From: Opitutia bacterium Tous-C4FEB
Lineage (GTDB): Bacteria > Verrucomicrobiota > Verrucomicrobiia > Opitutales > Opitutaceae
DNA length: 64,000 nt
Assembly (NCBI GenBank): GCA_002304445.1
Contig: NEVA01000002.1
Coordinates: 186,001 to 250,000, forward strand
Direction of reading: 5' to 3'
A model generated the notes under the pieces. That model did not search any database. It had not been told where the DNA came from and was given only the letters and a program-made list of their open reading frames with translations. The stretch's first letter is position 1. Each line of letters opens with the position of its first letter. A program made the translations under genes and the position numbers. This document shows positions 39,112-54,815 of the stretch, piece by piece.

Positions 39112-41712
39112 ATGTTAGTGAGTCGGAATTTACGCCTGCCTCACGCCCTGCGCTACGGCGCCCGGCGATCTTTCGGCGTCGCCTTGCTGGCGGTGGGGTT
39201 GCTGGCGGGAGCGGCGAGCGCGGCCGACGCACCGGCGGGGCAAACCGAGTTTTTCGCGGGAGAGTATACGGAGGCGTTAAAAAAGGCGGCGGCGGCGGTC
39301 GAGGACATGCCGGGTGGCGAAGACGGACAACTGCTGCGGATCGAGATTTTGCTCGCGCAAGGCCGCGCGGAAGCGGCCGACGAGGCGTTGACGGAGGCGT
39401 TGCGTGTTCTGCCCCAAAGCCTGCGTCTGGTGTGGTTGGGGCGCGACGTGGCGTTTGCCAACGGCCGGCCCGAGGTGGCGGCGCTCCGGCTCGATCAAGT
39501 GCGGCAGCTCTACGGGAGCCGACCGAGCGCCTACCGCAACCCGGCGGACTTGGTGGTGTTTGGCCGCGCGGCGTTGCTGCTCGGAGCGGATCCCAAGGAT
39601 GTGCTGACGAAAGTTTATGCCCCGGCGCAGAAGGCCGCTCCGAATCGGCGCGACGTTTACCTCGCGCGCGGCGAACTCGCCTTGTCGAAAGGTGATTATG
39701 CGCTGGCGGCAACCGCGTTTCAGGAAGGCGTGAAGCAAGTGCCGAACGATCCTGATCTGCTGAGCGGTCTCGCGCGGGCCCATGAAGAAGGCGATCGCAA
39801 GGAAATGCTCGCCGCGCTTTTGGCGGCGTTGAAGCTAAACCCGCGGCATGTGCCGAGTCTTTTGCTCCAAGCGGATCACGCGATCGATGGCGAACGGTAT
39901 GCCGACGCCGAGGAAAATCTCGCGACCGTGTTGAGCGTGAATCCCGATCAGCCCGATGCCTGGGCCTTGCGGGCGGTGTTGGCACACCTGCGCAACGATC
40001 CGGCGGCCGAGGCCTCGGCCCGGGCGGCGGCGCTGCGCGTGTGGGCGACCAATCCGCGCGTGGATTGGCGCATCGGAGAGAAACTCTCGAAGAAATATCG
40101 CTTCGCCGAAGGCGCGGAGCGGCAGCGGCAGGCCCTGCAATTCGATAAAACCTACCTGGCGGCGAAGGCGCAGCTCGCGTCCGATTTGCTGCGGTTGGGC
40201 GAGGATGCCGAAGGGTGGCGGCTCGCCCAAGAGGTGCACAAGGAGGACGGCTACGATGTGGAAGCGTTCAACCTCGTGACGCTGCAGGACACGATGGCGA
40301 AGTTTACGACGCTGCGGAACGAGGACTTCGTCGTTCGTATGACGGCGCACGAGGCGGCGGTTTACGGGCCGCTGGTGATGGATCTGCTGGGCCGGGCGAA
40401 GACGGCGCTGGTCGAAAAATACGGGGCCGAACTCATCGCGCCGACCACGATCGACATCTTTGCGGACCCGAAAGATTTCGCCGTGCGGACGTTTGGCATG
40501 CCGGATATCCCGGGGTTTCTCGGCGTGTGCTTCGGCCGCGTGGTGACGGCGAACAGCCCGGCGTCGACGGCAAAATCCAACACGAATTGGCAGTCGGTGA
40601 TGTGGCACGAGTTCTGTCACGTGGTCACGCTCCAGCTCACCAAAAACAAGATGCCGCGGTGGTTGAGCGAAGGGATTTCGGTTTACGAAGAACGACAGGC
40701 AAATCCGGCGTGGGGCCAGCACATGACGCCCGTTTACCGGGAACTCATCTTGAAAGAAGGCCGCGAAGGATTGACGCCGGTGCGCAGCATGAGCGCGGCG
40801 TTTCTGGCGCCGCCGACGCCGGAGCGGCTGCAGTTTGCCTATTATCAGGCGTCGCTGGTGGTGGAGTTCCTGATCGCAAAGCACGGACTCGACAAATTGC
40901 GCGCCGTGCTGCGGGCCTTGCGGGATGGGGACGATATCAACCGGGCGCTGGCGCGGCACATCGCGCCGCTGGACGAGATCGAGCCGGCGTTTGTCGCTTA
41001 CGCCCGCGATCTCGCGAGAGCGATGGGCCCGGACCTTAACTGGGATAAGCCTGAAAAAGAGCTGCTCCGCCCGGATGCCGCCGTGCAGTTGCAAGGGTGG
41101 AGCGCGTTGAGGCCGAGGAATTACTGGTTGGAGCAGCGACGCATCCGGATGTTGCTCGACGACAAGCAATGGGCGGAAGCGAAGAGCGCGCTCACGGCAT
41201 TGTTGAACCATTATCCCGATCAACGTGGTGACGACAGCGCGTTGCGGTTGCTCGCGCAGGTGCAGCGGGAGCTCAAGGAAACGGCGGCGGAGCGGGAGAC
41301 TTTGCGGAAGTGGGCCGCAATCGACGGTGAGGCGGCGGACGCCTACTTGCGGCTGGCGGAGCTGGCGGCGGCGGATGGCGAGTGGCCCGAGGTTAAGCTG
41401 AACGCCCGGCGGTTTTTGGAAATCAATCCGCTCGTGCCCGCGCCATGGCGCTTGCTGGCCAAGGCGAGCGCGGCGGGCCCAGATACGGCGACGGCGATCA
41501 TGGCCAACCGGACGCTGCTGCGGTTTGATCCGGCCAACCCCTCAGACGTGCATTTTGAGTTGGCGCGGCTGTTGCAGAAAACGGGCGACCCTGCGGCACG
41601 GCGTGAAGTCCTGTTGGCTCTCGAAGACGCGCCGAGGCACCGGGCGGCACTGTCGTTGTTATTGGAGATCGACGCGGCCCGACCGGCCGGGTCGCCCTCA
41701 CCCCAACCATGA
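39112..41712 (+). CDS. Exported TPR protein with HExxH metallopeptidase domain
   Basis: 866 residues. A signal peptide covers residues 18-38 (GVALLAVGLLAGAASAADA). TPR-like helices fill about 45-370 and 680-850. The centre holds a gluzincin motif H499-E-F-C-H503 with the downstream Glu in MPRWLSEGISVYEE, the peptidase-MA pattern. It is therefore a probable periplasmic zinc protease on a repeat scaffold. It is the first gene of the nine-gene MoxR-type module, its stop overlapping the next start (ATGA). Substrate unknown. Confidence 0.85.
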   Translation: MLVSRNLRLPHALRYGARRSFGVALLAVGLLAGAASAADAPAGQTEFFAGEYTEALKKAAAAVEDMPGGEDGQLLRIEILLAQGRAEAADEALTEALRVLPQSLRLVWLGRDVAFANGRPEVAALRLDQVRQLYGSRPSAYRNPADLVVFGRAALLLGADPKDVLTKVYAPAQKAAPNRRDVYLARGELALSKGDYALAATAFQEGVKQVPNDPDLLSGLARAHEEGDRKEMLAALLAALKLNPRHVPSLLLQADHAIDGERYADAEENLATVLSVNPDQPDAWALRAVLAHLRNDPAAEASARAAALRVWATNPRVDWRIGEKLSKKYRFAEGAERQRQALQFDKTYLAAKAQLASDLLRLGEDAEGWRLAQEVHKEDGYDVEAFNLVTLQDTMAKFTTLRNEDFVVRMTAHEAAVYGPLVMDLLGRAKTALVEKYGAELIAPTTIDIFADPKDFAVRTFGMPDIPGFLGVCFGRVVTANSPASTAKSNTNWQSVMWHEFCHVVTLQLTKNKMPRWLSEGISVYEERQANPAWGQHMTPVYRELILKEGREGLTPVRSMSAAFLAPPTPERLQFAYYQASLVVEFLIAKHGLDKLRAVLRALRDGDDINRALARHIAPLDEIEPAFVAYARDLARAMGPDLNWDKPEKELLRPDAAVQLQGWSALRPRNYWLEQRRIRMLLDDKQWAEAKSALTALLNHYPDQRGDDSALRLLAQVQRELKETAAERETLRKWAAIDGEAADAYLRLAELAAADGEWPEVKLNARRFLEINPLVPAPWRLLAKASAAGPDTATAIMANRTLLRFDPANPSDVHFELARLLQKTGDPAARREVLLALEDAPRHRAALSLLLEIDAARPAGSPSPQP

Positions 41713-42620
41713 GGAAAGCTCCGCTGATCGTCGTCTGCTTCGCCTTTGGCTCCGGGCTTTTGCTGGCGCAGCGATGGTATGGCGAGGGCAGCGGCATTGA
41801 TGAGAACACGCGGACGGCGCGAGAAGTGGCCTCCCACAGCACAGGCACGCCGGAGTGGAGCAACCGGCCGGGCTTCGAAAAGGACGTGTTTACGTTTGCG
41901 CGGATCCGCTACTCTTCGGGCGGCGGTCGCTCATCGTTTGCCGGCGGTTTCGGTCAACGGGTCGGTGGCTTCGGCCGGCGCGGCCGGGCAAATTCCTGGG
42001 CCATCGATACGCCCGACAGCGATCTCAATCTCTCCTATCGCCTCCAGCAGATGACCTCGATGAAGGTCGACCCCGATGGTCGTTATCTGCGCCTGACTGA
42101 CCCGGAGCTCGCCGAGTATCCGTTCATTTACATCGTCGAGCCCGGCGGCCTCAACCTTAGCGACGACGAGGTGTCGGCGTTGAGGCGTTACTTGCTGAAC
42201 GGCGGGTTCCTAATGCTCGACGATTTCTGGGGTGCGGCGCAGTGGGACAACATGGCCGGCGAGCTCAAAAAGGTGCTGCCGGAGCGCACCTTTTCCGAAC
42301 TGCCGATGGACCACCCGGTGTACACGGCGGTGTTTCAGATCAAAGCCAAGGGCCAGGTGCCGAGCGTGTATCTGGGCATGCAGAGCGAATACGACCCCGA
42401 TCGCCGCACGTGGGAGGACCACGGGCCCGACAGCGAGCAGGTGCACCATCGCGGGCTGTTCGACGACAAAGGCCGCCTCATGGTTTTGGCGTTGCACAAC
42501 ACCGACAACGGCGACGGTTGGGAGCGTGAAGGCGAGAGCGACTACTACTTCAAAAATTTCTCGGAGAAAATCGCGTATCCGCTCGGGATAAATGTGATGT
42601 TTTACGTGATGACGCACTAG
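41709..42620 (+). CDS. DUF4159 protein, copy 1
   Basis: 303 residues with an N-terminal signal peptide (LIVVCFAFGSGLLLAQ). The core carries the DUF4159 pattern RPGFEKDVFTFARIRY, LSYRLQQMTSMKVDPDGR, LSDDEVSALRRYLLNGGFLM and the end NFSEKIAYPLGINVMFYVMT (parts). DUF4159 has a flavodoxin/glutaminase-like fold and occurs with MoxR and VWA proteins, but has no known activity. A Gly/Arg-rich stretch near 70-95 is specific to this copy. It is clearly a tandem duplicate of the next gene. Confidence 0.85.
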   Translation: MRKAPLIVVCFAFGSGLLLAQRWYGEGSGIDENTRTAREVASHSTGTPEWSNRPGFEKDVFTFARIRYSSGGGRSSFAGGFGQRVGGFGRRGRANSWAIDTPDSDLNLSYRLQQMTSMKVDPDGRYLRLTDPELAEYPFIYIVEPGGLNLSDDEVSALRRYLLNGGFLMLDDFWGAAQWDNMAGELKKVLPERTFSELPMDHPVYTAVFQIKAKGQVPSVYLGMQSEYDPDRRTWEDHGPDSEQVHHRGLFDDKGRLMVLALHNTDNGDGWEREGESDYYFKNFSEKIAYPLGINVMFYVMTH

Positions 42621-42621
42621 C

Positions 42622-43635
42622 ATGATGACTCTGCGCAAAGCTTTGAAAATTACGTCGGTCCTGCTCTTTGCGGCCGGCGGGGTGGCGGGTTTCGCCCAGT
42701 TTGGGCCCAACGATCCCAATCGCTTTCGTTTTGGGTCCGGCGGCAGCGGCGGTTACGGAGGGCGGGGAAATTATTATTCGCCGATCATCCGGACCGAGGG
42801 CGGAGTGCTGGTGAACGAAGACTCGGTCCGCACCGCTCGCGAGACCGCACCCAACAGCACGGACACGCCGACTTGGATAAACCGGCCTGGTTTCGAGAAC
42901 GATGTTTTCACGTTTGCCCGTGTGATCTTCAAATCAAAGGACGACTCGGGCTACCTAGGGACTTACAATTGGGGGGCCGGGCCACACCTGAATTGGTGGG
43001 TAGATTTCCCGGACGCCGATTTGAATTTTTCCCTCCGGCTCCAGCAAATGACGTCGATCCGGACCGATCCCGACGGCCGGGTCTTGAAGCTCACTGATCC
43101 GAATCTGAATAACTACCCGTTCCTTTACATGACGCATCCGGGCTACATCAAACTGTCCGACGCGGAGGTGACGGCTCTGTCCCGATACTTGCGCAATGGC
43201 GGCGTGTTGTTGATCAACGATTTTTGGAGCGCGCTCGAATGGAAGAACTTTGAGACCCAGATGCAGCGGGTTTTGCCCGGACGGACCTGGACGGAGCTTG
43301 AGACCGATCACCCGATCTTCAACTGCGTCTACAAAATCGAAGGACCGATGCAACGGCTACAGGTGCCAACCATGCAGTTCTGGGATCGAAGTTTCGATCC
43401 GAATAATCCCAACTCACGTCTTCAGCAGGTGAATCGCGGTGAAGGGTCCGAAAAGAAGCACATCCGCGCGTGGCACGACGACCGGCAACGCATCTCGATC
43501 CTCGCGATTCACAACAGCGACGTCGCCGACGGTTGGGAGCGCGAGGGCGAGTATGAGGATTATTTCAAAACGTTTTCCGAGAAAATAGCCTATCCGTTAG
43601 GCGTGAATATCGTCTTCTACCTGATGACCCACTAA
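42622..43635 (+). CDS. DUF4159 protein, copy 2
   Basis: 337 residues with a signal peptide (ITSVLLFAAGGVAGFAQ). It shares long blocks with copy 1: RPGFENDVFTFARVIF, LRLQQMTSIRTDPDGR, LSRYLRNGGVLLINDFW and FSEKIAYPLGVNIVFYLMTH. It differs by a WGAGPHLNWWVDFPDADLNF stretch and a longer WDRSFDPNNPNSRLQQ loop. It starts one base after copy 1 ends, and its own stop shares a base with the moxR start (TAATG). Confidence 0.85.
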   Translation: MMTLRKALKITSVLLFAAGGVAGFAQFGPNDPNRFRFGSGGSGGYGGRGNYYSPIIRTEGGVLVNEDSVRTARETAPNSTDTPTWINRPGFENDVFTFARVIFKSKDDSGYLGTYNWGAGPHLNWWVDFPDADLNFSLRLQQMTSIRTDPDGRVLKLTDPNLNNYPFLYMTHPGYIKLSDAEVTALSRYLRNGGVLLINDFWSALEWKNFETQMQRVLPGRTWTELETDHPIFNCVYKIEGPMQRLQVPTMQFWDRSFDPNNPNSRLQQVNRGEGSEKKHIRAWHDDRQRISILAIHNSDVADGWEREGEYEDYFKTFSEKIAYPLGVNIVFYLMTH

Positions 43636-44669
43636 TGAGCATTGCCCCTCCTCCCGCTCTCGTCCCCGACGCCTTCCAAGCCGAGCGCGCCGCCGTCGAA
43701 CAACTCATCGCCGGCCGCGCGCGCATCGACGCGGAGCTGGCCAAAGCGATCGTCGGCCAACGCGCCGTGATCGAGCAGATCCTGCTCGCGCTGCTGGCGG
43801 GCGGGCACGTCCTGATCACCGGTGCTCCCGGTCTGGCGAAGACGCTGCTCGTGAAGTCGATCGCGCAGATCTTTCACCTGAAGTTCCAGCGCATCCAGTT
43901 TACGCCCGATCTGATGCCGGCGGACATCACGGGCACCGAGATTCTGCAGGACGGGGAGGGCGGACGGAAACTCGCCTTCGTGCCCGGACCGATTTTTGCG
44001 AATCTGGTGCTGGCCGATGAGATTAACCGCACGCCGCCGAAGACGCAGGCCGCGCTGCTCGAGGCGATGCAGGAGCACCAGGTCACGGCCGCGGGCGTGC
44101 GCCACGCGTTGCCGGAGCCGTTCTTTGTGCTCGCGACGCAGAATCCGATCGAGATGGAAGGCACCTATCCGCTGCCCGAGGCGCAGCTCGACCGCTTTAT
44201 GTTTAACGTCGTCATGGATTATCTGCCCGAAGATGACGAAGTGCGGGTCATCTCGCAGACCACCGGCGGCAAGCCGGCGGCGATTGAGCCGCTGTTTACG
44301 GGGGAGGATGTGCTGCAGTTTCACCAGCTGGTGCGGGCCGTGCCGGTCGCCGACGACATGGTGCGCTATGCGGTGCGGATCGCCGCGGCGTCACGGCCGC
44401 GGCAAACGGGCACGCCGGATTTCATCAACGACTGGGTGAGCTGGGGGGCGGGCACGCGCGCGGCGCAGTTTCTGGTGCTTGGCGCCAAGGCCCGGACGCT
44501 GCTGCAAGGCCGGGCGCATGTGACGGCCGAGGACATCCAGGCACTCGTAGCGCCCGTGCTGCGACACCGCGTGTTGCTCAACTACCGCGCCGAGGCCGAC
44601 GGCATGCGCGTGGAAGAAGTGATCCGCCGCCTGGTCGCGGCCGTGCCGGTGCCGGTGAAGGCGGCGTAA
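43635..44669 (+). CDS. MoxR-family AAA+ ATPase
   Basis: 344 residues. Walker A is GAPGLAKT (63-70), Walker B lies in LVLADEINRTPPKTQAALLEAM, sensor 1 in FFVLATQNPIEMEGTYPLPEA and the AQLDRFMF block follows. A C-terminal lid with an arginine-rich helix completes the domain. MoxR ATPases act as chaperones that load metal or assemble VWA-domain partners, usually the DUF58 and Bat proteins encoded beside them. That is exactly the context here. Confidence 0.95.
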   Translation: MSIAPPPALVPDAFQAERAAVEQLIAGRARIDAELAKAIVGQRAVIEQILLALLAGGHVLITGAPGLAKTLLVKSIAQIFHLKFQRIQFTPDLMPADITGTEILQDGEGGRKLAFVPGPIFANLVLADEINRTPPKTQAALLEAMQEHQVTAAGVRHALPEPFFVLATQNPIEMEGTYPLPEAQLDRFMFNVVMDYLPEDDEVRVISQTTGGKPAAIEPLFTGEDVLQFHQLVRAVPVADDMVRYAVRIAAASRPRQTGTPDFINDWVSWGAGTRAAQFLVLGAKARTLLQGRAHVTAEDIQALVAPVLRHRVLLNYRAEADGMRVEEVIRRLVAAVPVPVKAA

Positions 44670-44684
44670 GGCTCCGCGCTCACG

Positions 44685-45617
44685 ATGGCCGTTGCAAATC
44701 TGCCTCCCGCGCTCGCCGCCGGCACGCTCATCGAGCCGAAGGCGCTCATGGGCATCCGTAGCCTCGAGCTGCGGGCGCGGGCGGTCGTCGAGGGATTTTT
44801 GCACGGATTGCATCGCAGTCCGTTTCACGGTTTCTCGGTGGAGTTTACCGAGTATCGGGCCTACACGCCGGGCGACGATCTGCGCTACCTGGATTGGCGC
44901 GTGTTTGCCCGGAGCGACCGGTACAACATCAAGAAGTTTGAGGACGAAACGAATCTGCGGTGCCAGCTCGTTGCGGACCAAAGCCAGTCGATGACCTTTG
45001 GCTCGGGCGGGCACACCAAAGCCCATTACGCGGCCACGCTCGCGGCGACGCTCGCTTATTTTCTCCACCTTCAAGGCGACGCGGTGGGGTTGCTGACCTT
45101 TGACGAAAACGTGCGGGATTTTCTTCCACCGCGGCAACGGGCCGATCACTTGCGGCTGCTCATGCTCGCTCTGGAAAAACCGGCCGGCGGCCGGGCGACC
45201 GATCTCGCGGCGCCGCTGGAACGGGTGGCGCAGCTCACGCGGAAGCGCGGGTTGGTGGTGCTCATTTCCGATTTTCTCGCGCCACTGGAACAACTCGAGC
45301 GCAGCCTCCTGTTGCTGGCGGCGAGCGGGCAGGAAACCGCGGTGTTTCAGGTGCTCGATCCGGCGGAGCTCACTCTCGCATTCGAGCGGCCGACGCTGTT
45401 TCAGGACATGGAAACCGGGCGCGAAGTTTACGTCGATCCGGCGGCGGCACGGGCGGGCTATGTCGAGAAAATGACCGCGCACCTCGCCGCCGTGGCCGGA
45501 ATCTGCGAAAAACTCGGCGTGGCGTATCAGCGGGTGACGACGGATCAGCCGCTGGAGCTGGCGCTTTTCGAGTTTCTTGAACAACGCCGTCGGCGGAAAA
45601 CCCGGGGCCGCGTATGA
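44685..45617 (+). CDS. DUF58 protein with VWA metal site
   Basis: 310 residues, no membrane segment. The DUF58 core is EYRAYTPGDDLRYLDWRVFA with NIKKFEDETNLRC (58-93). The MIDAS motif D98-Q-S100-Q-S102 is intact, so it can bind a divalent ion. It is the usual cytoplasmic partner of MoxR. It starts 15 bases after moxR and overlaps the BatA-like gene by 4 bases. Confidence 0.93.
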   Translation: MAVANLPPALAAGTLIEPKALMGIRSLELRARAVVEGFLHGLHRSPFHGFSVEFTEYRAYTPGDDLRYLDWRVFARSDRYNIKKFEDETNLRCQLVADQSQSMTFGSGGHTKAHYAATLAATLAYFLHLQGDAVGLLTFDENVRDFLPPRQRADHLRLLMLALEKPAGGRATDLAAPLERVAQLTRKRGLVVLISDFLAPLEQLERSLLLLAASGQETAVFQVLDPAELTLAFERPTLFQDMETGREVYVDPAAARAGYVEKMTAHLAAVAGICEKLGVAYQRVTTDQPLELALFEFLEQRRRRKTRGRV

Positions 45618-47698
45618 GTTTCCTGACGCCGCTCTTTTTGCTGGGAGGACTTGCGCTGGCTTTGCCCGTGATCTTCCACCTGATCCGGCGGACGACGCGG
45701 GAGCGCACGGTGTTCAGCTCGCTGATGTTTTTGCTGCCCACGCCGCCCCGGCTGACCAAGCGCAGCCGGCTGGAGCATTGGCTGCTGTTGCTCCTGCGTT
45801 GCCTGGCGTTGGCGCTGTTGGCCTTGGGTTTCGCGCGGCCGTTTTTTAAGGAGACGACCACCAACGACGCGGCGGTGTCCGGGGCGGCGTGGCGGATCGT
45901 GCTGGTGGATACCAGCGCTAGTATGCGCCGCGCGGGGCTTTGGGCTGAGGCGCGGGCGCGCGTGGACCGAGAGCTGCGGGCGACCGGCCCGGGCGATCAG
46001 GTGGCGATGTTCACGTTTGCCCGGGAGAGCCGGCCATTGCTGAGCTTCGGCGACTGGACGGCGACGTCGCCGGACGCGCGGGCGGCGCTGGTCAACGCCA
46101 AGCTGGCGGAGGTCTCGCCGGGCTGGGGGGCGACGAATTTGGGCGCGGCTCTGATCGGCGCGGCGGAAGCGCTGATCGACACCGAAGGCCAGACGTTGAC
46201 CGGACCGAGGGAAATCGTGCTCGTGAGCGATTTGGCGGCGGGAAGCCACACGGAAGGCTTGCAAGGCTACGAATGGCCAAAGGGTGTGACGTTGCGGGTC
46301 GAGACCGTGGCGGCGAAGGCGGGAACGAATGCGAGCGTGCAACTGCTCGCCGACCCGACGGACGGCGACCGCCAAACCGCCGCGACGGTGCGGGTGCGGG
46401 TGAGGAATGCGGCGGACGCGCAGCGCGAGCAGTTTTCCGTGGGCTGGGTGCCGGAGGCGGGCGGGGCCTTTATGGGCGCGCCGGTCGAGACCTATGTGCC
46501 GCCGGGGCAGAGCCGGATCGTAACGCTGCCGGTGCCCGCGGGGGCCGCGCAGGCGATCGCGCTACGGGGTGATGACGAAGATTTTGACAACACCGTGTTC
46601 GTGATCCCGCCAGTCGCGCAGAAGATTTCGGTGGCTTATGTCGGCAGTGAGTCGGCCGACGATGCGCGGCAGCCGCTTTATTTTTTGCGGCGGGCGTTGC
46701 CCGCGACGCCGCGGCTGGCGCTGGCGGTGACGCCGGTGCCGGCGGGGGCGGGCGTCCCGGCGGATGCGGCGGTGGTCGTGGTGACCGATGCGCTTTCGGC
46801 GGGCCAAGCGACGGCGCTGCGCGAACAGGTTTTGGCCGGTAAAACCGTACTGGCCGCGCCGAAGAATGTGGCCGCAGCGGTCGCGCTTGCGCCGCTGCTT
46901 GGGCTGGCGACGTGGCCGGTGGAGGAAGGTCAGCCGAAGGGCTATGCGATGTTGGCGGAGATCGATTTCAAGCATCCGCTCTTCGTGGCCTTTGCCGATC
47001 CGCGCTTCAGTGATTTCACCAAGATCCACGTTTGGAAGTATCGTCGTCTTGATTTCTCGGCGCGGCCGGAGGCCCGGTTATTGGCCAAGTTCGACAGCGG
47101 CGATCCGGCCATCGTCGAAGTTCCAGCGGGCAAAGGCCGGGTGGTGGTGCTCGGCATGGGTTGGAACACGGAGGACAGCCAATTGGCGGTGTCGTCGAAG
47201 TTTGTGCCGTTGCTTTACGCTTTGCTTGAGTGGAGCGGAGCATTGGCCGCGCCGGGTGCGCCGCAGGCCGTTGAGGAAAATATGGCGCTTTCGGCCGGAC
47301 CGAACGAAGCCGTGGTCGTGACCGGTCCGACGGGCCCTGCGACAACGCTTGCAGTGGGAACCAACCGTTTCACGCCCCTGCAGCCGGGCATCTACCGATT
47401 TGAAATCGGTGGGCGCACAGAGGTGCAGGCGGTGAATCTTGATCCGGTGGAGGCGCGCACGACGCCGTTGCCCACGGATGAGTTGGAGCGTTTGGGCGCG
47501 CCTGTGGCGCGGGCCAAGCCGAGTGCCGTGGGTCCGACCGGGCAGGAAATGGCGCTGCAGGGAGCCGAGGCCGAAGGGCGTCAAAAACTCTGGCGTTGGT
47601 TCGTCGTGGCGACGTTGCTTTTTTTGCTTGGTGAATCCCTTTTGGCCGGTCGAACCGCGCGCCGCAGCGTGACGGCTCCGGCCCCCCTCGCACCATGA
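45614..47698 (+). CDS. BatA-like membrane protein with VWA and glutaminase-fold regions
   Basis: 694 residues. The N-terminal BatA segment has two helices (3-22 and 54-76), with the RERTVFSSLMFL linker typical of the family. The VWA domain has an intact MIDAS D99-T-S101-A-S103. A beta-rich part (about 260-330) and a glutaminase-like region (AVVVVTDALSAGQATALREQ) follow. A final helix (WFVVATLLFLLGESLLAG) anchors the C terminus. The middle of the protein is therefore periplasmic. Its 4-base overlaps with both neighbours indicate coupled translation. Confidence 0.87.
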   Translation: MSFLTPLFLLGGLALALPVIFHLIRRTTRERTVFSSLMFLLPTPPRLTKRSRLEHWLLLLLRCLALALLALGFARPFFKETTTNDAAVSGAAWRIVLVDTSASMRRAGLWAEARARVDRELRATGPGDQVAMFTFARESRPLLSFGDWTATSPDARAALVNAKLAEVSPGWGATNLGAALIGAAEALIDTEGQTLTGPREIVLVSDLAAGSHTEGLQGYEWPKGVTLRVETVAAKAGTNASVQLLADPTDGDRQTAATVRVRVRNAADAQREQFSVGWVPEAGGAFMGAPVETYVPPGQSRIVTLPVPAGAAQAIALRGDDEDFDNTVFVIPPVAQKISVAYVGSESADDARQPLYFLRRALPATPRLALAVTPVPAGAGVPADAAVVVVTDALSAGQATALREQVLAGKTVLAAPKNVAAAVALAPLLGLATWPVEEGQPKGYAMLAEIDFKHPLFVAFADPRFSDFTKIHVWKYRRLDFSARPEARLLAKFDSGDPAIVEVPAGKGRVVVLGMGWNTEDSQLAVSSKFVPLLYALLEWSGALAAPGAPQAVEENMALSAGPNEAVVVTGPTGPATTLAVGTNRFTPLQPGIYRFEIGGRTEVQAVNLDPVEARTTPLPTDELERLGAPVARAKPSAVGPTGQEMALQGAEAEGRQKLWRWFVVATLLFLLGESLLAGRTARRSVTAPAPLAP

Positions 47699-50600
47699 AT
47701 GCTTTTCTCACCGCCCGCCTTCGCCGGGTCATCCGACGGCACCAGTGGCGCCTGCTCTCCTATCGGCTCGCGGTGGTGTGGGCGATTGCGGCGGCGGTGG
47801 GCCTCGTGGTGCTGATCGTGCAGGCGCAGTTCGGCTGGTCTTCGCTCTATTCGTTCCCTGCGGTTGCGGCGCTGGCGGCGTGCGGTGCGATGTTGGTGGT
47901 GTGGCGCAGCGTGGAAGAGCGGCCAACGATCCGGTCCATCGCCCACACGATCGAGACGGCGTATCCCGAACTGCGCGGACTGCTGCTTACGGCAGTCGAA
48001 CAGTTGGAAGCCGACGACGGAGGCGAGGGGAGTTACCTGCGCTACCGGGTGCTCCAGCAGGCGGTGGAACACTGCCAGGAAACGGGCAACTGGCGGGCGG
48101 CGGTGCCGCTATTGCGGGTGCGGACCGCGGACCTGGTGCATGGCGCGGCGCTGGTGCTGTTCGTCGGCACGTTTTGGGTGGGGCGCGAGAATTGGCGCAA
48201 AGAAGGCGGCGGGGTCGGTGCGACGATGTTTGCGAAGCGTGGTCTGACGGTCAGCCCGGGCGATACGACGTTGGAACGGGGTGAAAGCCTTGTGGTGCTG
48301 GCACGATTTGGCGGAGCGTTACCGGCCGGGGTCGAACTCGTCGTCAATGACGGCAGCGGACCGGCGCGCACGATCTCGTTGGTGAAGAGCCTCGCGGATC
48401 CGGTCTTTGGCGGGACGGTGCCGGATGTCGCGACGGATTTCGTTTACCACATCGATACCAAGGGCGAGCGCTCCCGGGATTTTAAGGTCACGGTGTTCGA
48501 GTATCCGCGGCTCGTGCGGTCCGATGCGGAGCTGGTGTTCCCCGGCTACACCGCGCTGCCGCCCCGCCGGATCGAGGACACGCGCCGGGTGAGCGCGGTC
48601 GAGGGCACCCAGCTCAGCGTGACGTTCCAACTCAATAAACCGGTGGCGACGGCCAAATTGGTCGCGCGGGGCAAGGAGAAGACGGAGATTCCCCTTGCGG
48701 TCGTGGACGGGAAGGCCGTCGCGACGTTGTCCGGATTCACGCTGACGGGGACGCAGAGCTACGACGTGAAACTCACCGATGCGGAAGGGCGTGATAACAA
48801 GTCCGCGCCGCCGCTCGTGGTCGAGGTTTTGCCGAATCGCACGCCCGAGCTGAAACTGGTCTCGCCCCGTGGCGATGTGCGGCCGTCGGCGCTCGAGGAG
48901 ATCGCGTTTGAAGGCACGGTCTGGGACGACTTCGGCGTGCCGGCTTACGGTCTGGCCTACACGGTGGCCGGGCAGGAGACGAAGGTGATCGAACTTGGCC
49001 GGACCGTGGCGGCGAAGGTGAAGCAGCCGTTCGCGCAGTTGGTGCGCTTGGAGGAACTCAAAGTGAAGCCGGACGATTTGGTTTCCTGGTATCTCTGGGC
49101 GGACGATATCGGGCCGGACGGACTGGTGCGGCGGACGACGACCGATATGTTTTTTGCGGAAGTGCGGCCGTTCGAGGAAATTTTCCGGGAGAGTCAGGAG
49201 ATGCAGGGCGAACCCCCGGAAGGGCAGGCGGGGAGCGGCGAGCAAATGAGGAAGCTCGCCGAGCTGCAGAAGCAGATCATCGCGGCGACTTGGAAACTGG
49301 TCCGCACTCCGGGTGCGGGGACATTTGGCGCCGACGTCACGGTCGTCACGCAGTCACAGGCGCAGGCGTTGCAACAGGCCGAAGGTGAGGCCGGGAAAGC
49401 CACGGGACCCCGGGGGCAGGGGCTCTGGGCGGCCGTCATCAAGGAGATGGAGAACGCCAAGGGCCAGTTGGAGCTGGCGGCGAAATCGCCCGAGGCGCTC
49501 AAGGCGGCGCTGACGGCCGAGCAGGCGGCGTATCAGGCGTTGCTTAAGCTGCAGGCCCGCGAAACCAGCGTCACGAATAGCCGCAACCGAAGTCAGGGCG
49601 GCGACAGCCAAGGCGACCAACGGGAACTCGACGGCCTCGACCTCGACCAATCGGAGAACCGCTATGAAACGAAGCGGCAGGCCAATTCGCCGCAGAGTCC
49701 GGAGCGACGGGAGCAAAATCAAGTTTTGAACCGATTGCAGGAGCTGTCGCGACGGCAACAGGACGTGAACGAACGGCTCAAGGAGTTGCAGACGGCGCTC
49801 GAAGCGGCGCGTACCGCGCAGGAAAAAGAAGAAGTGCGGCGGCAGTTGAAGCGGCTGCAAGACGAGCAAAAGCAGATGGTGGCGGACATGGACGAAGTAC
49901 GGCAGCGAATGGACCGGCCGGAGAATCAGTCGGCCATGCAGGAGCAGCGCGATCAACTCGACCGCACGCGCGCCGAGGCGCAAAAAGCCGCGGATGCGGC
50001 GGGCAAAGGCGAAGTCTCGCAGGCCTTGGCGGCGGGCACCCGGGCGCAACGTGATCTGCAACAGATGCGCGACGAATTGCGGAAGAGCAGCTCGAGCGAG
50101 TTCGCCGAGGACTTGAAAGAGATGCGAAACGAGGCCCGCGATCTCGCCCGCGAGCAGGAGGAAATCTCGAAGAAAATTGCCGGTCTCGACGACCCGAAGA
50201 AGAAGACGCTCGGCGAGGCGCCGGAAAAAGACGCCGCGCTCAAACAGCTGGCGGAACAACAAGAGCGCATGAGCGACCTGATCGACAAGGCGACGCAACT
50301 TTCGGAACAAGCCGAGAACTCTGAGCCGTTGTTGTCGCGTCAACTTTACGACAGCGTGCGCCGGATCGCTCAGGACGACGGCAAGGCGGTGAAGGACACG
50401 CGCCAAGAGTTACTGGAGCAGGGCAATCTCACGCGGAGCTTCAACGAACGGCTTAAGGAAGCGGAGAAACGCGAAGGCTCGGGCAAGGCCTTGGAGCTGA
50501 CGAAGGACCTGTTGCAACAAGGCCTGTTGCCCCAGGCCGGCCAAGCCGGACGTCGCGCGGCGGCCGGGATCGACGAATTGAGAAAAGGAGTGGAACGGGC

Positions 50601-51357
50601 GGTGGAGAACGTGCTCGGCGACGACGGCGAGGCGTTGAAACTCGCGCGCTCGGAGCTGGAGCAAGTGACCGAGCAACTCACCCGCGAGCTCGCGCAAGGC
50701 CAACCGGGCGAAGGCCAACCCGGAGAGGGCGAGCCCCAAACGCCTACGACCGACGCGCCCGGCCAACCGGGTGAGGGGCGCCAAGCGAGCACGGAGGCGA
50801 ATCCCAACGGCACGCCGTCGGGCGAAGCCACCGGGGGACAACCCGGCGGGCAGCCCGGAGAACGGCCGGGCCAAACTCCAAGCGAACGCGGGACCCGTGA
50901 GGGCCAGCGTTCCTTGGCGGGTGGCGGCGGCGGAGGCGAGCGCGGGGACGCGCGGGGTCCTGGTCGCTTGGAGGAACTCTTGCGGGGCGAGCGACGTCCG
51001 AGTGCGCCGGGAGAGGGCTACGGCGGACCGATCACCGGGGATGATTTTGGGGCGTGGGCGGACCGCTTGCGTGATGTCGAAGAACTGGTGGATCAACCGG
51101 CGTTACGCGATGCCGTCGCGAATGCGCGCGAACGCGCGCGCTTGATGCGCCAAGAGTTCAAACGTGATTTGAAGAAACCCGACTGGGCGGTGGTGCGCTT
51201 GCAAGTATTGCAGCCGCTGCTCGAAGTGCGGAAGCGGCTCGGCGAGGAGCTGGCGCGGCGGGATTCGAAGGATGCCCTCGTGCCGATCGATCGCGATCCG
51301 GTGCCGGGGCGTTATTCGGAGTCGGTGCGGCGCTATTACGAGGAGCTGGGAAAGTGA
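47695..51357 (+). CDS. Giant membrane coiled-coil protein (DUF4175-like)
   Basis: 1220 residues, role unknown. Two helices lie near 24-43 and 54-70 and a third near 144-160. A beta-rich, Ig-like extracytoplasmic part runs to about 480. A long Gln/Glu/Arg/Lys coiled coil follows (about 495-1000, for example RQQDVNERLKELQTALEAAR). A Gly/Pro/Gln/Glu low-complexity linker with GQPGEG repeats spans about 1002-1100, then a helical C terminus. The layout resembles DUF4175 proteins seen beside MoxR modules. It could act as a rod or tether in the envelope; this is inference. Confidence 0.7.
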   Translation: MNAFLTARLRRVIRRHQWRLLSYRLAVVWAIAAAVGLVVLIVQAQFGWSSLYSFPAVAALAACGAMLVVWRSVEERPTIRSIAHTIETAYPELRGLLLTAVEQLEADDGGEGSYLRYRVLQQAVEHCQETGNWRAAVPLLRVRTADLVHGAALVLFVGTFWVGRENWRKEGGGVGATMFAKRGLTVSPGDTTLERGESLVVLARFGGALPAGVELVVNDGSGPARTISLVKSLADPVFGGTVPDVATDFVYHIDTKGERSRDFKVTVFEYPRLVRSDAELVFPGYTALPPRRIEDTRRVSAVEGTQLSVTFQLNKPVATAKLVARGKEKTEIPLAVVDGKAVATLSGFTLTGTQSYDVKLTDAEGRDNKSAPPLVVEVLPNRTPELKLVSPRGDVRPSALEEIAFEGTVWDDFGVPAYGLAYTVAGQETKVIELGRTVAAKVKQPFAQLVRLEELKVKPDDLVSWYLWADDIGPDGLVRRTTTDMFFAEVRPFEEIFRESQEMQGEPPEGQAGSGEQMRKLAELQKQIIAATWKLVRTPGAGTFGADVTVVTQSQAQALQQAEGEAGKATGPRGQGLWAAVIKEMENAKGQLELAAKSPEALKAALTAEQAAYQALLKLQARETSVTNSRNRSQGGDSQGDQRELDGLDLDQSENRYETKRQANSPQSPERREQNQVLNRLQELSRRQQDVNERLKELQTALEAARTAQEKEEVRRQLKRLQDEQKQMVADMDEVRQRMDRPENQSAMQEQRDQLDRTRAEAQKAADAAGKGEVSQALAAGTRAQRDLQQMRDELRKSSSSEFAEDLKEMRNEARDLAREQEEISKKIAGLDDPKKKTLGEAPEKDAALKQLAEQQERMSDLIDKATQLSEQAENSEPLLSRQLYDSVRRIAQDDGKAVKDTRQELLEQGNLTRSFNERLKEAEKREGSGKALELTKDLLQQGLLPQAGQAGRRAAAGIDELRKGVERAVENVLGDDGEALKLARSELEQVTEQLTRELAQGQPGEGQPGEGEPQTPTTDAPGQPGEGRQASTEANPNGTPSGEATGGQPGGQPGERPGQTPSERGTREGQRSLAGGGGGGERGDARGPGRLEELLRGERRPSAPGEGYGGPITGDDFGAWADRLRDVEELVDQPALRDAVANARERARLMRQEFKRDLKKPDWAVVRLQVLQPLLEVRKRLGEELARRDSKDALVPIDRDPVPGRYSESVRRYYEELGK

Positions 51358-51395
51358 TCAGTTTTTACTTAGAGTGTTTCTCGGGCGGAGGTGAC

Positions 51396-51416
51396 GGGCG
51401 TCGGCGAGCGACGCCC
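51396..51416. repeat. REP-like palindrome
   Basis: An 8-bp perfect stem GGGCGTCG / CGACGCCC with loop GCGAG, followed by CCTAC, sits in the only sizeable gap (67 bases) inside the MoxR module. The GTAGGGGCGTCGC style read on the minus strand is a repeat type I recall from Opitutaceae-like genomes. Confidence 0.55.
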
Positions 51417-51424
51417 CTACACGG

Positions 51425-53791
51425 ATGAGAATCGCGGCGCTGACATTCTCCGGAGGACATTGGCTTTGGCCGGTGGTTGTGTTTTTGGCGTTGGCCGGGC
51501 TCGCGGTATTTTGGAGCTACCGGGCGGCTGCGGGGTTGGGCGGCTGGCGTTGGGCTTGTCTGGCTTTGAAGATTTTGGGTCTGGCGGCTCTGGCGGCGTG
51601 TCTGTTGGAGCCCTTATGGACCTCGGAGCGGGCGCGGACGGGGGCCAACCTCTTCGTGGTGGCGGCGGACAACAGCCAAGGGCTGCAAATCAAGGACCGG
51701 GGCGAGGCGACCACGCGCGGCGAGTCGTTGCGGGCCTTGTTGGACCCGCGGGAAAACGACTGGCAGGCGACGCTGGAAAGCTCGTTTGAGCTGAGGCGTT
51801 ACTTCTTCGACACGCGGCTCCAGTCGACGACGGATTTTCATGAGTTGGTTTTTGACGGTCGGGCCACGGCGCTGGCGGGCTCGTTGCGCACGCTGAAAGA
51901 GCGCTTCCAAGGCCGGCCGTTGGCGGGAGTGCTTTTGCTCACGGATGGTAACGCCACCGACCTGAGCGGCGTGGCGTTGCCGGACCTGTCGGGCATGCCT
52001 CCGATCTATCCGGTCGTGATCGGTCGGAGCGAGCCGGCGCGCGATTTGGCGGTGCAGCAGGTGAACGTGAGTCAGACGGCGTTTGAGGACGCCCCGGTGT
52101 CGATCCAAGCGGAAGTCGCGGCGGCGGGCTTTCGGGGCGAAGACGTGGTGGCGACCTTGACCGATCAGGCGGGGAAAGTGGTGCAGGAACAGACGCTCGC
52201 GGCGAAGAAGGACAGTGATGCGCTGGCGTTTCGCTTTCAGGTGAAGCCGGAGCAGAAAGGATTGTCGTTTTACGAAGTGAAGGTGGCGGCGAAACCCGGC
52301 GCCGTGGCGGCACCGGCCGAAGCGACGACGCTCAATAATCGGCGCGTGATCACGGTCGATCGCGGGGAAGGACCGTATCGGATTCTCTACGTGGCCGGCC
52401 GGCCGAATTGGGAATTCAAGTATTTGAACCGGGCGGTGGAGACGGACGACCAAGTGCAGTTGGTCGGACTGATCCGCGTGGCGAAACGGGAGCCGAAGTT
52501 TGATTTCCGCGGGCGCGCGGGCGAGACGAGCAACCCGCTGTTCCGCGGGTTTGGCAATCAGGCGGCGGAGGAAGTGCAACGCTACGACCAGCCGGTGCTG
52601 GTGCGTTTGAACACCAAAGACGAAGTGGAACTGCGGGCGGGATTCCCGCGCACGGCGGAAGAGCTGTTTGGTTACCACGCGGTGATTTTGGACGATGTGG
52701 AGAGCGAGTATTTCGCGCCGGAACAGGCGCAGCTCGTGCAAAAATTTGTCGGGGAACGGGGCGGCGGTTTCCTGATGCTCGGCGGGATGGAGTCGTTTCA
52801 GGAGGGCAATTACGCCCGGACGCCGATTGGCGATTTGCTGCCGGTGTATTTGGAGAAACCGACGGAGCAGACGGCCCAGGCGCCGGTGAAATTGGAGTTG
52901 TCGCGTGAAGGCTGGCTTCAGCCGTGGGCGCGGTTGCGGGACAATGAAGCCGATGAAAAAGTGCGGCTGACGGAGATGCCGGGATTTCAGGTTTTGAACC
53001 GGGTGCGCGGAATCAAGCCGGGCGCGAGCGTGATCGCGACGGTGCGCGACGAGCAAGGCGGGGAGTTGCCGGCGCTCGCGGTGCAGCGATTTGGCCGGGG
53101 TCGGAGTTCGGCGTTGATGGTGGGCGATGTGTGGCGTTGGGGCATGAAGGATGCGGCCGCGCGGACGGATATGGACAAGGCCTGGCGTCAGCTCATGCGC
53201 TGGCTGGTCGCCGATGTGCCGCGGCGCGTGGAGCTGGCGATCGAGCCCTTGGCGGGAGATGCCAACGGCGCGGTGCAATTGCAGGTGCGGGCGCGGGATG
53301 CGGGCTACAAGGCGCTGGACGAGGCGAGCGTCACGGTCGAGGTTGAGTCGATCACCTTTGGCGGAGAAGCTGCCGTGGCGGCGGCCCCGATCCGGCTTCA
53401 GGCCGAGGCGGTGGGAACGGAGCCGGGATTCTTTCAGACGACGTATGTGCCCCGCGCGACGGGCGGCTATCGCGCCCGGGCGATCGTGACGAATGCGGCG
53501 GGGGCCGAAGTCGGTCGGGCTGAGGCCGGTTGGAGCACGGATTTGGCGGCGGAGGAATTTCGTTCGCTCACGCCCAACGTGGCGCTACTGGAAGAACTCG
53601 CGAAGAAGACCGGCGGCGAGGTGATCGCGGCGGGCGATTTGGAGAAATTTGCCCGCAGCCTGCCGGCACGGAAGGCACCGGTGATGGAAACGCGACTCGA
53701 GCCTCTGTGGCACACGCCGGTGATGTTTCTGTTGGCGCTGGCGTGTTTTTTGGGGGAGTGGGGCGTGCGGCGTTGGAAGGGCCTGCCATGA
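51425..53791 (+). CDS. Membrane protein with degenerate VWA and glutaminase-like domains
   Basis: 788 residues. Two N-terminal helices (13-30, 44-62) and one C-terminal helix (MFLLALACFLGEWGV) bracket a large periplasmic part. The VWA-like domain carries D82-N-S84-Q-G86, where the last MIDAS Ser is replaced by Gly. A class I glutaminase-fold region follows (ILYVAGRPNWEFKYLNRAVE, FLMLGGMESFQEGNY) without a nucleophile Cys. A final beta-rich domain precedes the anchor. It is paralogous in layout to the BatA-like protein and probably a non-catalytic partner. Confidence 0.8.
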   Translation: MRIAALTFSGGHWLWPVVVFLALAGLAVFWSYRAAAGLGGWRWACLALKILGLAALAACLLEPLWTSERARTGANLFVVAADNSQGLQIKDRGEATTRGESLRALLDPRENDWQATLESSFELRRYFFDTRLQSTTDFHELVFDGRATALAGSLRTLKERFQGRPLAGVLLLTDGNATDLSGVALPDLSGMPPIYPVVIGRSEPARDLAVQQVNVSQTAFEDAPVSIQAEVAAAGFRGEDVVATLTDQAGKVVQEQTLAAKKDSDALAFRFQVKPEQKGLSFYEVKVAAKPGAVAAPAEATTLNNRRVITVDRGEGPYRILYVAGRPNWEFKYLNRAVETDDQVQLVGLIRVAKREPKFDFRGRAGETSNPLFRGFGNQAAEEVQRYDQPVLVRLNTKDEVELRAGFPRTAEELFGYHAVILDDVESEYFAPEQAQLVQKFVGERGGGFLMLGGMESFQEGNYARTPIGDLLPVYLEKPTEQTAQAPVKLELSREGWLQPWARLRDNEADEKVRLTEMPGFQVLNRVRGIKPGASVIATVRDEQGGELPALAVQRFGRGRSSALMVGDVWRWGMKDAAARTDMDKAWRQLMRWLVADVPRRVELAIEPLAGDANGAVQLQVRARDAGYKALDEASVTVEVESITFGGEAAVAAAPIRLQAEAVGTEPGFFQTTYVPRATGGYRARAIVTNAAGAEVGRAEAGWSTDLAAEEFRSLTPNVALLEELAKKTGGEVIAAGDLEKFARSLPARKAPVMETRLEPLWHTPVMFLLALACFLGEWGVRRWKGLP

Positions 53792-53810
53792 GCGACTATT
53801 TTTTCTACCG

Positions 53811-53837
53811 CGAATGAGCACGAATGCGCACGAATTT
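53811..53837. repeat. Decameric CGAAT repeat at the start of the caspase-like gene
   Basis: Units CGAATGAGCA, CGAATGCGCA and CGAATTT follow each other at 10-base steps (53811, 53821, 53831), preceded by ACCG. The ATG of the next gene lies inside the first unit, so the first eight codons are repeat-derived. Confidence 0.55.
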
Positions 53838-54815
53838 TGGAAGTGGAGTCGGGCCGGACTGGTCTCGTTGACCGCTCTGATGGCGGGGACTTGGGCCGAA
53901 GCGGCGACGGCGGAGCAGCGAACGGTGTTGATCGTCTTGGGGGCCGAAGGTGAGGCAGACTACAAGGCGGGTTTTGCGGCGCAGGTGCCGCTTTGGGAAA
54001 AGGCGGCGGCTCAGGCGGGCGCGAAACCGGTCGTGATCGGAGCGGCGCCCGAGATCGAGACGGAAACGGACTGGGCGCAGATCAAGCAGACGCTGGAGGC
54101 GGAGCCGACGGCGGGCACCGGTGAGCTCTGGGTCGTGATGATCGGACACGGCACGTTCGACGGAAAGGAATCGAAGTTCAATTTGCGCGGGCCCGACTTG
54201 GCGGCGGGCGATTTGGCGGCGTGGCTCAAGCCGTTCGGGCGACCGCTGGCGGTGATCAACACGGCCTCGGCGAGCGCGCCGTTTATCGGGAAATTGTCCG
54301 GGCCGAACCGGGTGGTGGTCACCGCCACGAGGACGGGCAAGGAGCAGAATTTCGCGCGGTTCGGTCCCTATTTGGCGGAGGCGATCGGCGACGCGAAAAG
54401 CGACCTCGACCAAGACGGACAGACGTCGCTTTTGGAGGCGTTTCTTAGCGCGTCGGCGCGGGTGAAGGAGTTTTACAAGACGGAAGGCCGGCTGGCGACG
54501 GAGCACGCCTTGATCGATGACAACGGCGACGGATTGGGTACGCCGGCGGAGTGGTTCCGGGGAACGCGGGCGACGAAGAAGGCGAAGGATGGCGCGGAAC
54601 TTGACGGCACGCGCGCCCGGAATTTGCCGCTGGTGCGGAGCGATGCCGAAGAGAAGCTCACGCCGGAGCAACGCGCGCGACGGGATGAATTGGAACTGGC
54701 CGTGGAAGCATTGCGCGAGACCAAGTCCAAAGCGGCCGAGGCCGATTACTACCGCGACCTCGAGCGACTCATGTTGGAGCTGGCGCGGGTGTATGCGCCG
54801 TCGGTCGCGAAGTAG
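53814..54815 (+). CDS. Cysteine-less caspase-fold (C13/C14-like) exported protein
   Basis: 333 residues with a signal peptide near 12-30. The caspase-like His is H112 in VVMIGHGTFDG. The strand that should carry the catalytic Cys reads VINTASASAPF (147-157), and the whole protein has no cysteine, so peptidase activity is not possible. Two perfect EF-hand-type calcium loops follow: D197-x-D-x-D-G to E208, and D235-x-N-x-D-G to E246. A helical C terminus rich in Glu/Arg/Lys ends the protein. It closes the MoxR module, 22 bases after the previous gene. Likely a calcium-bound pseudoenzyme. Confidence 0.7.
   Translation: MSTNAHEFWKWSRAGLVSLTALMAGTWAEAATAEQRTVLIVLGAEGEADYKAGFAAQVPLWEKAAAQAGAKPVVIGAAPEIETETDWAQIKQTLEAEPTAGTGELWVVMIGHGTFDGKESKFNLRGPDLAAGDLAAWLKPFGRPLAVINTASASAPFIGKLSGPNRVVVTATRTGKEQNFARFGPYLAEAIGDAKSDLDQDGQTSLLEAFLSASARVKEFYKTEGRLATEHALIDDNGDGLGTPAEWFRGTRATKKAKDGAELDGTRARNLPLVRSDAEEKLTPEQRARRDELELAVEALRETKSKAAEADYYRDLERLMLELARVYAPSVAK

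Follow-up and report, generated by a model that had tools for sequence, protein, structure and literature searches.

Inactive caspase domains are already known from bacterial gene systems organized around MoxR ATPases. According to Kaur et al. (2020; PMC7159879), about 70% of the caspase domains found in the effector position are catalytically inactive, and the portion of that paper used here suggests that such domains may be dominant negatives or peptide-binding domains. A second group of natural pseudoenzymes, the bacterial pseudo-orthocaspases, carries a tyrosine and a serine in place of the histidine and the cysteine, according to the part of the description consulted (PMC6426788); the main text of that paper mentions neither Verrucomicrobia, nor Acidobacteria, nor MoxR. 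The protein that interests us had been read, from its sequence, as a non-catalytic caspase fold closing a MoxR module, which was considered unusual. Since inactive caspase domains in MoxR-vWA systems have been published (PMC7159879, in the portion used here), it is less unusual than supposed, and the protein is better regarded as a variant of an already described kind. A description of its particular family was nevertheless not found in the open-licence literature on MoxR/BatA/DUF58/DUF4159, caspase-like pseudoenzymes, bacterial legumain or EF-hand calcium binding.

The gene lies in a stretch of 64,000 nucleotides from Opitutia bacterium Tous-C4FEB, here called the window, whose positions are used throughout. 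It is the ninth and last gene of a run of nine genes on one strand (39112-54815) and starts at 53814, after a gap of 22 bases from the stop of the preceding gene, GAT788. The run is made up of the following genes:

39112..41712, plus strand: TPR and Peptidase_MA-like protein, with which the run opens (TPR families; PF13485, E = 6.2e-14)
41709..43635, plus strand: two DUF4159 proteins, 41709-42620 and 42622-43635 (PF13709, E = 3.9e-46 and 2e-43)
43635..44669, plus strand: MoxR AAA+ ATPase (PF07726, E = 3.2e-63; also PF20030 bpMoxR, E = 1.1e-11)
44685..45617, plus strand: DUF58 protein (PF01882, E = 8e-52)
45614..47698, plus strand: BatA-like VWA membrane protein (PF07584, E = 2.8e-19; PF13519, E = 8.7e-9)
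47695..51357, plus strand: CC1220, 1220 aa, hydrophobic segments at the N terminus and, by eye, a coiled-coil-like character (no Pfam match at E 1)
51425..53791, plus strand: GAT788, 788 aa, with N-terminal hydrophobic segments, a VWA-like part and a GATase1_like domain (PF07090, E = 8.2e-12)
53814..54815 (stop codon included), plus strand: cysteine-free protein of predicted caspase/legumain fold, 333 aa, ATG start

The DUF4159 genes form a tandem pair at 41709-43635, where many related loci have just one.

Plain sequence searches do not recognize the fold of the last protein. Whole-protein scans against Pfam and NCBIfam gave no caspase match for its 333 residues, PF01650 (Peptidase C13) and PF00656 (Peptidase C14) did not match it at E 1, and PF00656 had no match at E 0.001 across the genome of the window. 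A sequence search of the PDB retrieved calmodulins alone (E 0.8-1, over the acidic loops), and the profile of alignment A1, which has 26 rows, gave weak and unrelated matches only when compared with PDB sequences (the best being WbdD, E = 0.19). PF01650 was weakly matched by three of the 26 A1 members (best E = 9.3e-4). The structure prediction, in turn, bears out the caspase fold proposed in the sequence-only reading: AlphaFold2 run on the 26-row A1 alignment gave a caspase/legumain fold with a pLDDT of 85.6 and a pTM of 0.83. The 50 Foldseek rows listed comprised MALT1, caspases, metacaspases, SAVED-CHAT and an asparaginyl endopeptidase, with a best E-value of 6.3e-6 (TM-score by query 0.40) and with TM-scores by query that are low among the rows listed (0.30-0.43). 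VIA placed legumain and metacaspase chains on top, including prolegumain 4nol_A (Z 17.4, rmsd 2.9, 194 residues), in a ranking where rows at most one Z apart count as tied. Finally, hhalign related the profile of 94 family members to that of 20 cysteine-bearing verrucomicrobial caspase homologues at 96.6% in local and 98.0% in global mode, the hhalign E-values being those of a single pair; the controls remained at 2.0% and 0.1% for the reversed profile, at or below 0.8% for 20 column shuffles and at 0.1% for a GAT788 profile. As the plain searches are blank, the fold is visible only through AlphaFold2, the weak Peptidase_C13 matches (3/26) and the profile-profile comparison. On the predicted structure, the protein has the clan CD (caspase/legumain) fold. 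From the pair of residues expected of a clan CD peptidase, it has the histidine of the His-Gly motif (H112), whereas the cysteine after the next strand is absent and replaced by A151. It is thus very probable, as far as the model goes, that this is a caspase fold devoid of catalysis. The features of the protein are:

53814..53903, plus strand: N-terminal signal-peptide-like stretch, residues 1-30, basic, then hydrophobic, then A-x-A (AEA), by eye
54144..54152, plus strand: GHG, residues 111-113, His112 taking the position of the catalytic histidine (94/94 members; aligned with the GHG of cysteine-bearing homologues)
54258..54284, plus strand: NTASASAPF, residues 149-157, end of the cysteine strand and loop; A151 is the cysteine site by register
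54402..54437, plus strand: acidic loop 1, DLDQDGQTSLLE, residues 197-208, with a helix at 206-223 (D197, S205 and E208 in 94/94)
54501..54551, plus strand: EH, residues 230-231, and acidic loop 2, DDNGDGLGTPAE, residues 235-246 (E230 and D236 in 94/94; D239 in 88/94)
54663..54791, plus strand: C-terminal helices 284-302 and 309-326 (AlphaFold2 secondary structure)

In the N-terminal stretch (residues 1-30), the best 12-residue hydropathy is 1.72, at residue 14, no 19-residue stretch exceeds 1.6, and AlphaFold2 draws a helix at 11-34 with a pLDDT of about 50 through residue 30; the protein is probably exported, to judge from this stretch.

The protein contains no cysteine at all (count 0, the residues NTASASA being 149-155), as had been noticed from the sequence. 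The position that the catalytic cysteine would occupy was located through the cysteine-bearing homologues, which have the motif D-[ACST]-C after the strand. In the AlphaFold2 model of one of them, L135 (pLDDT 78.3, pTM 0.66), the strand ends at D165 and the invariant cysteine is residue 167; the strand ends here at N149, so the site corresponds to residue 151, an alanine. In the larger hhalign alignment, too, A151 stands opposite the cysteine of the homologues, with low local confidence near the cysteine (digits 1 to 5), and in the alignment with the smaller profile the cysteine falls in a gap directly past residue 150. Because of this low confidence and this gap, the register leans mainly on the secondary structure and on L212, a C13-type protein (PF01650, E = 1.7e-8). 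The family profile recovers L212 at 2.2e-7, and its sequence here, QQCYGGGF, points by eye to 151 once more.

The absence is shared by the relatives read. The family was studied through 94 distinct domains matching the A1 model at E <1e-40, of which 63 are verrucomicrobial, the phylum of the window, and 31 are of Acidobacteriota type. In the Acidobacteriota-type phylum, the sequences of 30 of the 55 matching genomes were read (L133, L137-L165); L210, L211, L214, L215 and L216 were also read, outside the 94, and 22 more distant domains were excluded from the 94 and read by eye. Of 57 relatives, 21 gave a match, as did 59 of 286 genomes of the class sample (44 at E <1e-40), 21 of 288 genomes of the phylum sample (13 at E <1e-40) and 55 of 199 genomes of the Acidobacteriota-type phylum (53 at E <1e-40), the samples of 57, 286 and 288 genomes overlapping one another. 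Close members are therefore absent from most sampled genomes, as the 44 out of 286 in the class sample indicate. The 94 homologues have a mean pairwise identity of 39.5% (minimum 22%), and conservation reaches at least 97% in only 16 of 317 columns, among them G111, H112, G113, D197, S205, E208, E230, D236 and G238; the features noticed from the sequence thus go beyond chance. The invariance of His112 (94/94) agrees with the earlier observation of this histidine in a GHG motif. Residue 151 is A in 41, S in 18, T in 15, G in 12 and F in eight of the 94, and never C; residue 152 is S in 87, A in four, E in two and P in one, again never C; Ser154 is kept in 91. The sequence-only reading had left it to the homologues to tell whether the cysteine had been lost once or had never been there: none of the 94 has a cysteine at the catalytic site, and the family looks ancestrally cysteine-free.

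Active cysteines at another site would argue against a non-catalytic family, and the few cysteines found near the site are off register, none of the members read having one at the catalytic position. Cys150, present in eight of the 94, is one residue before the cysteine site of the comparator; it corresponds to the leading C of the DCC motif of some cysteine-bearing homologues and arises about six times on the tree, so that it was rejected as a catalytic residue. Cys153 (3/94: L104, L105 and L140) is two residues past the site by register, and the cysteine of the distant L131 is four residues past the strand-end Asp; the same register excludes both.

In the FastTree phylogeny with midpoint root, the verrucomicrobial and the Acidobacteriota-type groups form separate clades (supports of 0.998 and 0.899, the values printed for the re-rooted tree). 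Along this tree, about 26 changes occur at residue 151, and the gains of Cys150 start from a cysteine-free root state. The 22 distant domains lack a catalytic-site cysteine by eye, several of them lacking the histidine too (e.g. L066, L068, L070, L071 and L075), and no cysteine-bearing member nested inside the family was seen among the members read. On these sequences, the family seems to be cysteine-free since its base, and a loss preceding the split of the verrucomicrobial and acidobacterial branches would be the simplest account. A decaying, functionless copy of a once active protease would also have lost its catalytic cysteine. Yet this possibility is extremely unlikely, as the cysteine is missing family-wide among the members read, and 94 distinct members retain an invariant His112, conserved acidic loops and their place by GAT788.

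Some other Verrucomicrobia have a cysteine-less caspase-like N-terminal domain at the head of stop-to-stop ORFs of 849-963 codons (L064, L069 and L070), and ORFs of like length are found in L065-L067 and L071-L074, with the histidine lost in several. Pfam places DUF3857 next, over its cut-off in 3/3 of L064, L069 and L070, and a transglutaminase domain over its cut-off in 2/3 (L064 and L070). In these distant Verrucomicrobia, the cysteine-less domain adjoins MoxR in 15 of the 18 loci L059-L076.

The retention of His112 and of the loop raises the possibility that the protein is still an enzyme, a serine-type hydrolase or transferase built on the caspase fold in which His112 would act with Ser152 or Ser154. 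A histidine and a loop kept without the cysteine are the remnant that such a switch would be expected to leave, and His112 (94/94), Ser154 (91/94) and Ser152 (87/94) are all widely conserved. Nevertheless, the register puts the nucleophile at position 151, where the family has A, S, T, G or F; in the hhalign alignment Ser152 belongs to an insertion of one residue, and 7/94 members have A, E or P in its place. Ser154, for its part, aligns with the serine of the C-x-S-G motif of the cysteine-bearing relatives, which we take not to be the nucleophile. Judged on these residues, a serine enzyme appears quite improbable. As the cysteine is missing here and in the relatives read from two phyla, the protein most likely serves a larger envelope complex by binding or as a structural component, and not as a protease.

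The two acidic loops had been described as perfect EF-hand-like loops. The 12-residue pattern used here, [DN]x[DNS]x[DNS]Gx5[ED], is indeed present in both loops of the protein, and in the family it is found in 80/94 members for loop 1 and in 34/94 for loop 2, the core [DNE][DN][NDST]G[DS] of the latter being present in 86/94. An EF-hand as a domain is not supported: PF13202 (EF-hand) was matched by only five of the 26 A1 members, with a best E of 0.072, and loop 2 does not have the helix-loop-helix frame, since in the model a strand (230-235) precedes it and two strand residues (243-244) come after it, together with a helical turn of three residues. Loop 1 has half of this frame, as the helix 206-223 follows it and merely a three-residue helical turn (194-196) comes before it.

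The idea that these loops are special to the protein is not supported for loop 1. A similar loop (D-x-N-x-D-G in L135, L136 and L179; another in L212) occurs in cysteine-bearing homologues, although not in every one read; an acidic loop of this type is thus no unique gain and was probably inherited. Loop 2, on the other hand, is a family trait among the sequences compared, although it is worn in L210, L214, L215, L216, L096, L104 and L105. The cysteine-bearing C13-type protein of L212 (L212:5852-8005) combines a loop-1-like loop and EHP at the place of E230-H231 and is devoid of loop 2. Going by its sequence, it is likely to be a catalytic cousin of the family; module genes were looked for in the L212 locus and none was found.

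Calcium binding by the acidic loops remains putative but is reasonably probable. One could imagine a purely structural calcium-binding protein, in which the caspase fold would be an inert support and the active parts would be the acidic loops with the C-terminal helices, which could for instance tether GAT788. The invariance of D197, S205, E208, E230 and D236 (94/94) would be consistent with such a role, and so would the two predicted C-terminal helices, in which R290 and E294 are invariant and L316 and E317 nearly so over the 26 rows of alignment A1. Nevertheless, a structural calcium protein leaves the retention of the GHG and of the old active-site loop unexplained, and we consider it unlikely.

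The genomic context is more constant around GAT788 than around MoxR. Forty verrucomicrobial regions were chosen by hand, in two sets of 20, from the matching genomes among the relatives and in the class sample, with some very short contigs omitted. To these were added 29 small acidobacterial-type loci and 20 large acidobacterial-type regions chosen from the matches in the 199-genome phylum set, 18 of which are also among the 29 small loci. GAT788 lies directly upstream of the caspase-fold gene, on the same strand and with a gap of less than 700 bases, in 40/40 verrucomicrobial regions, in 26/29 small loci and in 18/20 large acidobacterial-type regions. Among the small loci, L156, L160 and L161 are the exceptions, and a TPR-peptidase gene takes the upstream place in L202 (which holds L156) and in L205 (which holds L161), as well as in L214. 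The profiles of the module proteins were found, in the 40 verrucomicrobial and the 20 acidobacterial-type regions respectively, 28 and 13 times for MoxR, 29 and 16 times for DUF58, 31 and 16 times for BatA, and 36 and 16 times for CC1220, some of the regions being cut by contig ends. MoxR is absent from seven of the 34 verrucomicrobial regions of at least 15 kb, and L085, L092, L097 and L115 (about 17 kb each) have GAT788 and the caspase-fold gene alone of the nine. Given these MoxR-less and pair-only regions, the pair appears as a tight unit for which the MoxR run is usual but inconstant company. The place of the gene as the last of a MoxR module thus stands for the nine-gene run of the window and is weaker elsewhere (28/40 and 13/20 regions). 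Many of the acidobacterial-type regions are also permuted, with TPR-peptidase, DUF4159, MoxR, DUF58 and BatA genes downstream. On this basis, we regard it as highly likely that the caspase-fold protein is a dedicated partner of GAT788, and as likely, with less assurance, that it is tied to the MoxR machine.

In GAT788 itself, a MIDAS-like DxS[GS] motif is present in all 59 distinct rows that have letters at that place. Position 454, with which the GGxxxxLGG motif ends and where we take the GATase nucleophile to belong, is G in 60, A in five and S in one of 66 distinct rows, and never C; a cysteine occurs at 457, three residues past the last Gly of the motif, in three rows of the 80-row GAT788 set, repeats included. 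Two adjacent genes, one with a GATase1_like domain without the motif cysteine and one with a cysteine-free caspase fold, therefore have cysteine-free hydrolase folds.

The presence of MoxR (43635-44669) and BatA/VWA (45614-47698) in the run provides the MoxR and vWA pair of the conflict (anti-invader) systems, and the protein could in principle be a cysteine-free effector or a dominant-negative part of such a system, like the inactive caspase domains published for the VMAP-type systems (Kaur et al., PMC7159879, in the portion used here). The MoxR protein does match PF20030, the model of the beta-propeller ternary systems, with 44.6 bits for a cut-off of 27, but AAA_3 is far better (211.9 bits). 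The run carries, however, DUF58, BatA, GATase-like and DUF4159 genes, and no third component (VMAP, iSTAND, FtsH or beta-propeller) is found among the Pfam matches of the nine module proteins, a set of models with no dedicated VMAP or iSTAND model. In addition, the adjacency to GAT788 and the loops are conserved, not hypervariable, over two phyla, and the protein has the look of an exported one. A role in conflict is improbable under these circumstances.

The account that we favor, at somewhat better than even chances, is that of a non-catalytic, probably exported clan-CD protein, belonging to a family that seems to have long lacked the catalytic cysteine, that would be the dedicated partner of GAT788, usually within a MoxR-DUF58-VWA envelope module, and would act as a periplasmic binding subunit. 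In such a scenario, the protein would be a periplasmic subunit for binding or scaffolding, a peptide or another ligand would be held in what was once the active-site groove, where His112 and the Ser-rich loop lie, the acidic loops would bind Ca2+ and stabilise or gate the site in the groove, and MoxR, where present, would remodel the complex. The conservation of His112 and of much of the old active-site loop is a counterpoint to a scaffold, as a pure scaffold does not obviously need them. A calcium-gated ligand sensor is a possibility that we view with some doubt. More speculative still, and in our opinion unlikely, is the broader picture in which a branch of the caspase fold present in at least two phyla, without the catalytic cysteine in any member read and with its histidine always kept, would have become a calcium-gated periplasmic receptor through which an envelope machine, often with MoxR, would sense a ligand by means of two dead enzyme folds, the second being that of the GATase-like partner.

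Pseudoenzymes are often viewed as scattered losses among proteases, whereas this family looks cysteine-free from its base and has a fixed GATase-like neighbour in two phyla, for the most part accompanied by MoxR/VWA genes. To our knowledge, few targets of bacterial MoxR-VWA envelope modules have been described, and a conserved pseudoprotease with a kept histidine and acidic loops is a concrete entry point for testing what these modules bind. The family also calls for caution in annotation: the fold alone is insufficient to call such genes peptidases.

The comparison with the known systems places the protein near several of them. It resembles peptidase C13 (legumain/asparaginyl endopeptidase, PF01650) by its fold (Z 17.4) and by its GHG histidine, and differs from it by the lack of the catalytic cysteine and of a PF01650 match at E 1, and by the presence of loop 2 and of the C-terminal helices; a distant cysteine-less relative, L126, does pass the PF01650 cut-off (25.2 versus 22.8 bits), which L063 just misses (22.2). 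With the cysteine-bearing bacterial caspase homologues of PF00656 or PF01650 type (L135, L136 and L179), it shares the GHG, the strand and loop, and the loop-1-like D-x-N-x-D-G, but these proteins carry D-[ACST]-C and show no loop 2 in the stretches read. The pseudo-orthocaspases (PMC6426788) are, like it, natural bacterial pseudoenzymes of the caspase fold; in the part of their description consulted the histidine is replaced, whereas here it is kept in 94/94 and site 151 varies (Ala in 41 and Ser in 18 of 94). The MoxR-vWA ternary systems (PMC7159879) likewise have an inactive caspase domain genetically tied to MoxR and VWA. By the portion of the description used here, however, those domains are effector domains of the VMAP or vWA components of variable systems, while the protein of the window stands alone and has a fixed place beside a GATase-like gene.
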